DNA from: Bacillota bacterium
Lineage (GTDB): Bacteria; Bacillota; Bacilli; Bacillales; Cytobacillaceae
Assembly (NCBI GenBank): GCA_030705745.1
Contig: JAUZPT010000081.1
Location: forward strand, 1 to 10,000
Direction of reading: 5' to 3'
DNA: 10,000 nt
Each line of letters opens with the position of its first letter. Positions within the stretch are counted from its first letter, which is position 1. Below are positions 3,718 to 7,314 of this stretch, in pieces. Under the pieces are notes generated by a model that did no database searches, was not told where the DNA came from, and saw only the letters and a program-made list of their open reading frames with translations. A program made the position numbers and the translations under genes.

Positions 3718-4602
3718 ATGAAAAAATGGTTAACCATAATTATTGTAGCTGTATTTATGCTATCTTTAGCAGCTTGCTCGCAAAAAAATGATTCGTCATC
3801 AGATACGAAAAAAGAAGTAGTAACCCCAAAAGTATTAAAAATCGGAGCCATTCCCGATCAGAGCGCAGCCGATATTACGCGCTCGATGACCGATGTAGCC
3901 AAATATTTGGCGGATAAAACAGGCATGAAAGTCGAGTTTGTTCCTTCTGTTGATTACGCTGCACTTGTAACCGCGTTTCAACGTGGCGATATCCAGCTTG
4001 CCTGGTTTGGGGGATTGACAGGAGTTCAGGCAAGAAGTCTCGTTCCGGGTTCAGAAGCCATTGCTCAGCGCCCTCGTGATGCTGAATTCCACTCTGTTTT
4101 TATTACACAAAAAGATTCTGGCATTCAAAAGTTGGAAGATTTGAAAGGCAAGTCTTTTACTTTCGGCAGTGAAAGTTCAACTTCTGGACACTTAATGCCT
4201 CGTTATTATTTAATGCAAGCAGGAATTGATGCGAATAAAGACTTTGACGGCAAGCCAAACTTTTCGGGTTCCCATGATACAACATATAAACTTGTAGAAT
4301 CGGGTGCTTTCAAAGCTGGTGCGTTAAATGAAGCGGTGTGGCAAGCAGCTGTGAAAAACGGTAAAGTGGATACTAGTAAAGTTAAAGTTTTTTATACGAC
4401 ACCACCCTTCTTTGATTATAACTGGACAATTAATAACGTAGACAAAGCTACAAAGAAAAAAGTAATTGACGCTCTTCTTAACATGGGTAGCGGGCAAAAG
4501 AAAATTCTTGATCTTTTCCAGACAGATAAGTTTGTTAAAACAAATAATGAAAATTACAAGCCAATCGAAAAAGTTGCAAAAGAATTAAAGATTATTCAAT
4601 AG
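3718..4602 (+). CDS. PhnD/PtxB-type substrate-binding lipoprotein of an oxyanion ABC importer
   Basis: A 294-residue extracellular lipoprotein that captures the ligand for the ABC importer encoded next to it. The signal peptide has a lipobox LAAC with Cys20, followed by a Ser/Asp-rich linker. The mature part is a PhnD-like two-lobed binding protein: LKIGAIPDQSA near residue 40, DYAALVTAFQRGDIQLAWFGG (about 83-103, given here as ends only), the anion-binding serine/threonine loop SSTSG (about 153-157), then FSGSHDTT and GALNEAVW. The combination WFGGLTGVQAR with FGSESSTSGHLMP resembles, from memory, the subgroup annotated as putative selenate-binding proteins rather than classical phosphonate binders. 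The ligand is therefore open: selenate, phosphite or phosphonate. The ATG at 3718 has GGAGG (3704-3708) nine bases upstream. An ATG at 3713 is in another frame. It is first in the operon, 14 bases before the ATPase gene. Confidence 0.9.
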   Translation: MKKWLTIIIVAVFMLSLAACSQKNDSSSDTKKEVVTPKVLKIGAIPDQSAADITRSMTDVAKYLADKTGMKVEFVPSVDYAALVTAFQRGDIQLAWFGGLTGVQARSLVPGSEAIAQRPRDAEFHSVFITQKDSGIQKLEDLKGKSFTFGSESSTSGHLMPRYYLMQAGIDANKDFDGKPNFSGSHDTTYKLVESGAFKAGALNEAVWQAAVKNGKVDTSKVKVFYTTPPFFDYNWTINNVDKATKKKVIDALLNMGSGQKKILDLFQTDKFVKTNNENYKPIEKVAKELKIIQ

Positions 4603-4616
4603 CAGGTGTGGTAAAA

Positions 4617-5369
4617 ATGTCTTCACAAATAATGATAGAAGTGAAAAATATATCGAAACATTTTGAGCGGAAGATAGCATTATCTTCCCTTTCTTTTACC
4701 GTAAAAAAAGGTGAACGCATTGCCTTAATTGGGCCGAGCGGTGCAGGGAAAACGACCCTCCTTAATTCAATTGCTGGGATTGTTAAGCCAGAGTCTGGCG
4801 AACTGCTAATCGACGGTTCCCCTATTACCCGTTATAAGGATGGAAAAAAACTTGCTAAAAAAATCGGCGTTATCCGTCAGCAGTTCGACTTAATTGGTCA
4901 GCTTGCCGTCATTCACAATGTCCTTGCTGGAAGGTTTTCGGAATGGGGATTTTTTAAATCCATACTGTCTTTGATTGTGCCACAAAACAAAGAAACGGCC
5001 AATGTTGCTCTTGAAAGGGTTGGTTTAGCGGACAAAATGTTTGAACAGGCTTCCAATTTATCTGGAGGTGAGCAGCAACGTGTTGCCTTAGCAAGATTGA
5101 TTGTTCAAGGACCCGAAATCATACTTGCTGATGAGCCAGTTGCTTCCCTTGATCCAGCCAGGGCTGAAGACATTTTAACAATGCTGACAAACCTTGTTTG
5201 CGAAGAAAATCAAACATTAATGGCAAGCCTGCACTCGGTGGAGTATGCAAGGAAGTATTTTACGAGAATAATTGCACTAAAAGATGGAATTCTTTTTTTT
5301 GACTTGCCAACAGAAAAGGTGACGGATGCTATCCTCACTGATCTTTATCAGCTTAAGGAGCAGGGATAA
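4617..5369 (+). CDS. PhnC-type ABC transporter ATP-binding protein
   Basis: A 250-residue cytoplasmic ATPase that powers the importer. All nucleotide-binding motifs are intact, numbered from the ATG at 4617: Walker A GPSGAGKT (39-46), Q-loop around Q88/Q89, signature LSGGEQQR (148-155), Walker B IILADEP (168-174), D-loop SLDP and H-loop His206. PhnC-like features include the NVLAGRF segment after the Q-loop. I prefer the ATG at 4617 over the GTG at 4608 because AGGTG (4604-4608) lies eight bases before it, while nothing suitable precedes the GTG. The stop codon is one base from the permease start, so the two are probably translationally coupled. The ATPase appears fully functional, which matters because its partner permease is interrupted. 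Confidence 0.93.
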   Translation: MSSQIMIEVKNISKHFERKIALSSLSFTVKKGERIALIGPSGAGKTTLLNSIAGIVKPESGELLIDGSPITRYKDGKKLAKKIGVIRQQFDLIGQLAVIHNVLAGRFSEWGFFKSILSLIVPQNKETANVALERVGLADKMFEQASNLSGGEQQRVALARLIVQGPEIILADEPVASLDPARAEDILTMLTNLVCEENQTLMASLHSVEYARKYFTRIIALKDGILFFDLPTEKVTDAILTDLYQLKEQG

Positions 5370-5370
5370 A

Positions 5371-7008
5371 ATGAAACAGCTTATTTCCTCCTTTCAACTT
5401 CATAAAAGATCACTATTAACGCTAATCCTTAGCGGAGTTTTTGTATGGAGTCTATTTTCAATTAAGTGGAATGCCGAATTATTTCATAGCGGCGGCGGGC
5501 CGATCATTCTACAAATTTTGAAGGGTCTTATTCACCCGGCCATGAAAGCGAACCTATTTTCCCTCGGTCTACAATCCGCCTGGATCACTCTTGCTTACGC
5601 AGTTGCTGGAATGACATTTGCCATTCTGTACGCTTTTGTTTTTGGAATTTTAGCATCAGGTATTCTGGCTTCAAGCAAAACGGCTCGAATAAGTACTAAA
5701 GTTTTTTTCAGGGGAATCCTTGGCTTCACTCGATCGATCCATGAATTAGTGTGGGCGTGGATGTTTGTCGCGGCTATCGGATTATCACCTTATGCTGCGA
5801 TTCTAGCTATCGCGATTCCATATGGTGGTATCCTCGGTAGGATTTTTGCTGATATGCTAGCAGATGTACCCGAGGCACCGATTAAAGCCTTGAAATCTGC
5901 CGGAGCTTCAAGAATGCAGGCTCTATTTTATGGTTATCTGCCTCTCGTCCGTGCCGATATGATCAGTTATACCATGTACCGTTTTGAATGTGCGATTCGC
6001 TCATCAGCGATCATGAGTTTTGTTGGACTCGGAGGTCTCGGCTATCAGATCCAGCTTTCACTTGCCGATTTGAAATACGATGAGGTGTGGCTGTTTGTTT
6101 ATTTTTTAATTGCACTCGTTCTATTGGTTGACATGTGGAGCAATGTAATAAGAAAAGGGCTGACAGGATCAACTTCTAAAAAGTGGTTTGGCTCAAGTTC
6201 AATTTCTTCTGTTTTAGTGATCTTATTGATTTTTGGTTCCTTTGGATTCATTGCTTTAGGAGAAAACGCACATTTATTTGATCTTTTATCAAAAAATAAC
6301 CTAGAATTCACAAAGAAATTCTTCGGAGGACTCATCGGCCTAAACAATGACCGCCCTGCTTTTCTGGATCTTGGGAGTTGGATGGATGCATGGAAATTAT
6401 CCCTTGAAACGCTGCAAATGAGTGTTATGGCGATTGGCTTTGCAACCATTGGAGCATTCTTGACCGTTATCCCGGCGGCGCGGAACATTGCGAACGGTAC
6501 ATTGACTACTTCGAAAACTTGGTATGGCTGGCTATTGTTTGGGATAGTCCGCGTTCTGTATATTTTTTCAAGGGCAATTCCCGAACTCGTTTGGGCAATG
6601 ATTATCATTTTTATCTTTAAGCCAGGAATTCTTCCCGGTGCAGTGGCACTTGCGCTTCATAACTTTGGGATACTCGGGAAGCTGTGGGCCGAAGTGATTG
6701 AGGACATGGACCCGAGGCCTATTCGTAATTTGGCTTCATCAGGCGCTTCTAAAGCACAGTCTTTTTTTTACGGGGTAATCCCCGCTGTAATGCCAAAATT
6801 TTTGACGTATATCCTTTACCGCTGGGAAGTCATTATGAGAACAACCATTGTTGTCGGTTTTGTTGGTGCCTGATGACTGGGTATGCAATTCAAGTTAAGC
6901 ATGAGTTATTTTCAATATACAGAACTATCGTTGCTATTGATTTGCTATCTTATTCTCGTCGCACTTGCTGACTTAGCCTCGGAAACAGCGAGGAAAGCAG
7001 TTCGATAA
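5371..7008 (+). pseudogene. Fused double PhnE-type ABC permease interrupted by tandem in-frame TGA TGA
   Basis: The gene encodes two PhnE-type membrane domains in one chain, forming the whole transmembrane channel for the importer. Each half ends in an EAA-type coupling loop: EAPIKALKSAGAS...LP from residue 168 and RPIRNLASSGAS...IP from residue 449. The ATG at 5371 is chosen over an upstream in-frame ATG at 5326 because AAGGAG (5355-5360) precedes it and the earlier start lies inside the ATPase gene. In half one the second loop is followed by VGL-G221-G222-LGYQ. In half two the same place reads VGA, then TGA TGA (6871-6876), then LGMQFKLS. The frame continues for 43 more codons, including a last membrane helix (LSLLLICYLILVALADLA) and a basic tail like the family's, to TAA at 7006-7008. 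Stopping at 6873 gives 500 residues lacking that helix. It may be a recent nonsense allele, a recoded gene or a sequence error. Type pseudogene is a cautious label. Confidence 0.85.
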
Positions 7009-7025: not shown

Positions 7026-7053
7026 GAGACTGCCCATTTGGCAGTCTCTTTTT
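7026..7053 (+). terminator. Intrinsic terminator of the ABC operon
   Basis: A perfect 9-bp stem GAGACTGCC/GGCAGTCTC around the loop CATTT is followed by five T's. It begins 17 bases after the TAA at 7008, not after the premature TGA at 6873. This supports the longer frame as the ancestral gene end. Confidence 0.93.
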
Positions 7054-7314
7054 CATAACCTCTTTTCGTTTTGGCATTCATGATGATGACGATTATATAA
7101 ATCTTTTTTCATAATTCCCTAGACAACTTGTCATAATATAGTTATTCCGATGCATTCTATTTTGGGGAATGGTTTTCATTTATCGGTGAAATTAAAGTGT
7201 GGCAGCAAGCTTAGGATGTGGCCAAATGGGTGGTTGACCTTAGGGAAGCAAAAATTGGTCTGCCCTTTTAGTTATGTTCCTGAGCGTGACTAAAATCAGC
7301 GAGGTGGAAAAAGG
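7054..7314. other. Intergenic region upstream of the GH31 gene, no convincing promoter
   Basis: About 260 bases without a plausible gene. I find no good sigma-A hexamer pair. CATAATAT near 7132, with an ATA 18 bases upstream, is only a weak sigma-E-like match and is not asserted. No catabolite-responsive element was recognised. Confidence 0.4.

Follow-up and report, generated by a model that had tools for sequence, protein, structure and literature searches.

The gene for a fused two-domain ABC permease in the window, by which we mean the whole stretch of 10,000 nucleotides that was analysed, carries two consecutive in-frame TGA codons at the point where its relatives encode a conserved Gly-Gly pair. 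We assign a probability of about 0.58 to the reading that this TGA TGA is a real nonsense lesion of recent origin, found in no other genome seen. The stops would then be present in the cell and go beyond the assembly. Acting as ordinary stops, they would leave a permease of 500 residues whose second half lacks its final two helices, and the transporter would most likely be non-functional or crippled. Since the selA gene of the same genome is also interrupted, the permease lesion is probably part of a loss of selenium use, and the two interruptions together would mark an early, strain-level stage of that loss.

As is, the finding amounts to one gene cut short in a single draft genome. It also put UGA recoding to the test in a type of gene where it would be hoped for, against SECIS controls taken from that genome, and the outcome was negative. 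It further pointed to a fused PhnE-type permease beside a TIGR04553 binding protein. A specific high-affinity selenium transport system in prokaryotes, the importer class to which these proteins could belong, is listed as not identified in the accessible text of a 2026 review (PMC13188914).

The operon and its probable link to selenium

The window corresponds to contig C547 in a 3.33 Mb draft genome of 566 contigs (85.7% complete, 4.9% contamination), and the nearest genomes are Neobacillus-like, many of the matched loci being named Neobacillus. The operon, at 3718-7008, encodes in order a binding lipoprotein, an ATPase and the fused two-domain permease, and comprises or is followed by these features:

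3718..4602, + strand: substrate-binding lipoprotein, open, 294 aa (TIGR04553, 327.3 bits; curated cut-off 250)
4608..5369, + strand: PhnC-like ABC ATPase, open, 253 aa, GTG start as listed (TIGR02315, 250.0 bits, below the cut-off of 266.1)
5371..6870, + strand: fused PhnE/PtxC-type permease before the stops, 500 codons, two MetI-like halves (TIGR01097 in two stretches; Foldseek)
6871..6876, + strand: tandem in-frame TGA TGA at the conserved Gly-Gly (sequence and homologue comparison)
6877..7008, + strand: post-stop tail, 43 in-frame codons and TAA, equivalent to the family's final two helices and conserved (alignment and model)
7026..7053, + strand: GC-rich inverted repeat with a T run, intrinsic-terminator-like, closing the operon (by eye)

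The permease frame starts at the ATG at 5371 and reads GGT TTT GTT GGT GCC TGA TGA CTG GGT ATG CAA at the site, with the stops as codons 501 and 502 (6871-6873 and 6874-6876) and a TAA at 7006-7008; the protein context is ...VVGFVGA TGA TGA LGMQFKLSMSYFQYTEL... The site had been described, with the right coordinates, in an earlier note made from the sequence alone, and its other structural statements were also borne out: the first-half counterpart of the motif is GGA GGT at 6031-6036, the stops are followed by 43 in-frame codons, the TAA and (by eye) the terminator-like repeat, and both partner genes are open.

The binding protein and the ATPase are 82.7% and 78.0% identical to the copies in a relative genome, G002. 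Against TIGR01097 (curated cut-off 216.7) the permease scored above the cut-off both without its tail (318.7 bits) and with it (353.4 bits). A Foldseek search with the permease returned four matches at E 0.001 or better, all of them ABC importer permeases and headed by 9j4r chain A (FbpBC importer) and 3tui chain A (MetI of MetNI). A PDB sequence search with the permease gave no match at E 0.001, and an Rfam scan of the window gave nothing over the gathering score. In architecture, operon order and sequence the permease is like the fused PhnE/PtxC-type permeases (TIGR01097) of Neobacillus and its relatives, from which it differs in being 45 residues shorter and in having two stops for Gly-Gly.

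The binding protein scores above the cut-off of a family named 'putative selenate ABC transporter substrate-binding protein', and we asked how the permease is distributed relative to selA. Among 61 genomes, selA was present in 24/24 of those bearing the permease (hand-listed, with a match >300 bits) and in 23/37 of the others (Fisher p 0.0004), selA presence being taken from the profile listing; within the family the figures were 23/23 and 10/14 (Fisher p 0.015). These genomes are related, so both p values overstate the weight of the association. The two genes lie within 25 kb of each other in 16 of the 24 genomes, farther apart on one contig in three and on separate contigs in five, this genome included. 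Both the co-occurrence and the closeness support, as circumstantial evidence, the idea that the TIGR04553-type operon with a fused or split PhnE-type permease is a candidate dedicated selenium importer of Bacillaceae. Judged from sequence and genome context, the probable role of the operon is the uptake of selenium oxyanions for selenocysteine synthesis. In the literature searched we found no mention of the accession TIGR04553 and no demonstration of selenium transport by this family. The window matches the putative selenate transporter in its binding protein and in having a permease of the type found with selA; here that permease is cut short.

Conservation of the Gly-Gly site and of the tail

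All 119 homologous proteins compared (the best 120 of 1,263, the window's own left out) have Gly-Gly at the site, as do 69/69 loci whose best site match is at least 50% identical; these loci come from two collections, and some genomes are therefore counted twice. Another seven loci, 28-33% identical at the site, comprise six with Gly-Gly and one with Ala-Gly (L076, a cross match to its own first half). Moreover, none of the 15 full-length fused permeases found elsewhere has an interior stop. TGA at the site was seen in the window's own genome only, a count that leaves out the second member of the cluster of P0001, the window's own permease; among the matches listed, the protein collection held no same-species permease besides P0001. 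As far as seen, the stop is private, and it falls within a conserved domain whose orthologues are open, the pattern of a pseudogene or truncated allele.

The earlier note had proposed comparing orthologues for GGA GGA against TGA TGA and had pointed out that each TGA is one G-to-T change from GGA. Relatives do have sense codons for Gly-Gly, and the single-change argument holds if the ancestor had GGA GGA; however, that pair occurs in only 3/69 loci, where the codons are mostly GGC or GGT. GGA is the commonest glycine codon (1,988/5,500 in the sampled contigs). The same note had allowed that orthologues might end naturally at this position, and this is contradicted by the 119 near-full-length homologues, which run past it. 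Among the 119 shorter homologues listed, all but three continue past the motif with a normal tail. The exceptions are P0262, which carries the label partial, P0347, which already diverges ahead of the motif, and P0294, which diverges downstream of it. Stops in the split permeases of G006, G014, G016 and G030 (first-half matches, one TGA each) were considered as possible parallels and rejected, as they look like natural gene ends; in G016 the TGA at residue 267 is the end of the first gene, and the other three are stop-free to residue 265.

The sequence beyond the stops has changed little. Nearly invariant columns are kept at 23/25 positions in the tail and 247/256 in the body, and the tail is 81.4% identical to that of G002, the last 100 residues of the permease being 86% identical to G002 and the whole permease 77% to its nearest relative, P0002. 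A recent lesion would be expected to leave the tail this little altered. In the read-through model (mean pLDDT 77, pTM 0.76) the stops fall in a turn after the helix at 461-496, and the ORF as written lacks the helices at 503-512 and 516-544, which leaves the MetI-like fold of the second half incomplete.

Interior stops, selA and the accuracy of the draft

To obtain a background for interior stops we compared 1,318 ORFs, taken from 1.2 Mb of G002, against 434 kb of the window's genome. Matches were found for 89 G002 ORFs (23,864 aa, median identity 77%), three of which are selA and two pieces of the G002 permease, leaving 86. Ten stops fell inside alignments. Seven of them, spread over six matches and located between residues 7 and 31 of the G002 ORFs, were set aside as alignment edges or poorly aligned flanks by a rule demanding at least 40% identity over 15 columns on each side. 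The well-supported interior stops were those of the permease and selA only, with none in the 86 other ORFs, a narrow and non-random sample in that the matches lie on 19/60 contigs and 16/89 of them on the selA and window contigs. Against this background a double nonsense change is unusual, as the earlier note had held, but the site was picked for having stops. One of the stops set aside (L195 against L116, at residue 26 of 114) may be genuinely interior, though the ORF is short and doubtful. The reverse comparison, of the window-genome ORFs with G002 and with no flank rule, gave 24 stops in 79 matches, many of them in apparently spurious ORFs, and unfiltered stop counts therefore mean little. 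A coding-potential scan of 20 contigs, which returned 11 candidates and missed both known sites, was replaced by the G002 comparison.

The genome's selA (560.8 bits) has an in-frame TAG at L095:1864-1866 on contig C17, which follows ...NLEYKL and comes 152 codons into the translated open frame; the remaining sequence is in frame. No other of the 47 listed selA genes over the cut-off has an interior stop. A partial selA from another assembly (P0121, labelled 'MAG: ... [Bacillota bacterium]') is 99% identical over 88% of the searched part, open, and has Ser at the TAG position. An intact selA therefore exists in very close kin, and the selA stop is either strain-specific or an error. The genes selB, selD (apart from its UGA at the Sec position) and fdhA are open, as are those for the binding protein and the ATPase. 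Further selenium genes are accordingly broken in 1/6 cases (selA) against 0/~82 non-selenium ORFs (p about 0.07 by hand), the selenium genes having been examined on purpose.

Two broken selenium genes against none of the other ORFs compared suggests relaxed selection on selenium use, and strain-level decay of that use is plausible; with the other selenium genes examined open, the decay, if real, has only just begun. Loss of selenium genes and of the Sec machinery between close relatives and strains has been described in Helicobacter and Campylobacter in the portion of the source available to us (PMC9312934). The cases described there involve lost gene sets, whereas here there are stops in two genes and the others examined are open. 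A mutator background is not suggested, as mutY is open.

What speaks against a lesion is that a pair of neighbouring TGAs is an unusual outcome of point mutation, and we found no mechanism that would produce the two together. The heptamer TGATGAC recurs at 7084, where it might have acted as a template; we rejected this idea, since about one chance copy is expected per 10 kb (by hand).

The strongest competitor, to which we give roughly half the credence of the nonsense lesion, is that the cell has sense codons and that the bases of the draft are wrong here, perhaps through a poor read or mixed strains. The fragmented, incomplete and partly contaminated state of the draft favours such an error, as does the conserved tail. 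So does the stop in selA, at a codon that is open in the 99% identical selA of the other assembly. Had the original codons been GGA GGA and, for Ser, TCG (codons that were not seen), all the changes would be G:C to T:A, which is a common type of error. Errors of this kind are not rampant in the compared part of the genome, where 0/86 other matched ORFs have a well-supported stop, and the body of the permease has changed at 9/256 conserved columns, much as in P0002 (8/258), though more than in six other homologues (1 to 5). Both the recent double mutation and the base-calling error proposed in the earlier note survive.

Two oddities were noticed in the G002 genome itself. Its permease has a one-base frameshift of its own ~60 codons upstream of the motif (L175 near 9036), the similar P0002 being open, and its selD region (L176 7866-8827) holds two overlapping ORFs. 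These may be lesions or sequencing errors of G002.

Decoding of UGA in this genome

Provided that the sequence is correct, UGA UGA very probably acts as a stop. The release factor RF2 is encoded (prfB, 541.7 bits, over the cut-off) in a gene with what we take to be the usual in-frame UGA frameshift site, and TGA ends 37/242 ORFs of at least 200 aa in 60 sampled contigs; together these make UGA an ordinary stop in this genome. The two checks answer the question, raised earlier, of whether the genome encodes RF2 and uses TGA as a stop elsewhere, and they undo the hint that had been drawn from the absence of TGA at the gene ends of the window. A release-factor match on contig C15 that was listed with a TGA proved to be prfA, the TGA lying before the start of the gene.

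It is improbable that the ribosome reads through UGA UGA, or restarts at the ATG at 6883, to give a split but working permease. The tail is kept, an in-frame ATG lies at 6883-6885, and UGAUG could serve as a stop-start overlap. However, the ATG of that overlap is out of frame with the tail, and the Met at 6883 is a family residue in many relatives, hence no new start. Two tandem stops should lower readthrough. No relative was seen with this arrangement, and the RNA around the site has no unusual fold: six stretches gave z from -1.05 to +0.85, and a 40-base hairpin holding both UGAs (-6.9 kcal/mol, 12-base loop) was equalled by 27/200 shuffles. The readthrough of a leaky UGA followed by C, which the earlier note had offered, thus found no positive support, given the tandem stops, the presence of RF2 and the lack of either codon in any relative.

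The lineage uses selenocysteine, as seen in fdhA and selD. In fdhA (Fdh-alpha, L282:1885, contig C566) an in-frame UGA precedes HAPSVAGL and is followed by a clear SECIS-like hairpin; selD (L096, contig C17) has its UGA in TKAG-UGA-GCK and is otherwise open. Presumably both UGAs occupy the usual Sec positions. The genome also encodes selB (359.4 bits, cut-off 242.25), and four further Fdh-alpha matches over the cut-off have no interior stop. A selenium-transporter gene in a Sec-decoding lineage makes selenocysteine at TGA TGA a real possibility, so the unusual UGA decoding mentioned in the earlier note was an apt question, and we tested it; the tests made go against it.

We consider it very improbable that Sec-Sec is inserted at UGA UGA, which would tie uptake to selenium status. 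In its favour are the putative selenate transporter operon and the presence of selA, selB, selD and a UGA-containing fdhA in the genome. Cys was found at either UGA position in 0/119 listed homologues, and no SECIS-like hairpin comparable to the fdhA and selD positive controls of the same genome was found after the site. Downstream of the two UGAs, small hairpins reach -2.6 and -1.9 kcal/mol at best, against -7.7 in fdhA (GUUGCC-GGUCU-GGCAAC, 15 bases on) and -6.9 and -5.8 in selD; likewise, the 49-base stretch that follows the codon has a folding energy of -4.9 kcal/mol, against -17.9 and -15.1 in the fdhA and selD controls. A published screen, in the part of it available, demanded Cys homologues together with a downstream hairpin whose small apical loop holds a G, and kept singletons separate because they might be sequencing errors (PMC1088965). 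In addition, no second sequence with the arrangement was seen and selA is interrupted. A tRNA-Sec gave no match over the gathering score, while 46/46 other selA-positive genomes have one (compared by hand); with only 16 tRNA matches in the whole draft, the missing match carries little weight.

A natural precedent would be SaoP (NF040733), described in the accessible text of the 2026 review as a Sec-containing ABC permease with an in-frame UGA from a Sec-using lineage (PMC13188914). Our gene resembles it in being, as far as that description goes, an ABC permease gene with an in-frame UGA in such a lineage. Unlike SaoP, it has no match to the profile (NF040733 was not among the permease profile matches), no Cys homologues, no comparable SECIS-like hairpin and two adjacent UGAs. 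We think it slightly less probable still that the site is a selenium switch lacking a SECIS of known type, in which passage through UGA UGA would require a supply of charged Sec-tRNA, or of another tRNA that reads UGA, and the last helices, and with them uptake, would be set by selenium status. Beyond the association with selenium genes, nothing speaks for this switch. The least probable reading, that a suppressor tRNA or a reassigned UGA decodes the site as an amino acid, has nothing beyond the open frame in its favour and is opposed by RF2, by the long ORFs ending in TGA, by the lack of a well-supported interior TGA in the 86 other matched ORFs and by the anticodon TCA in 0/14 typed tRNAs (of a draft without most tRNAs).

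Elsewhere in the window, we noted by eye two spore-germination-permease-like genes lying tail to tail (1-876 and 920-2029), a cold-shock-protein-like gene on the minus strand (2184-2384) and, at ~2700-2830, a GC-rich stretch distinct from its surroundings.
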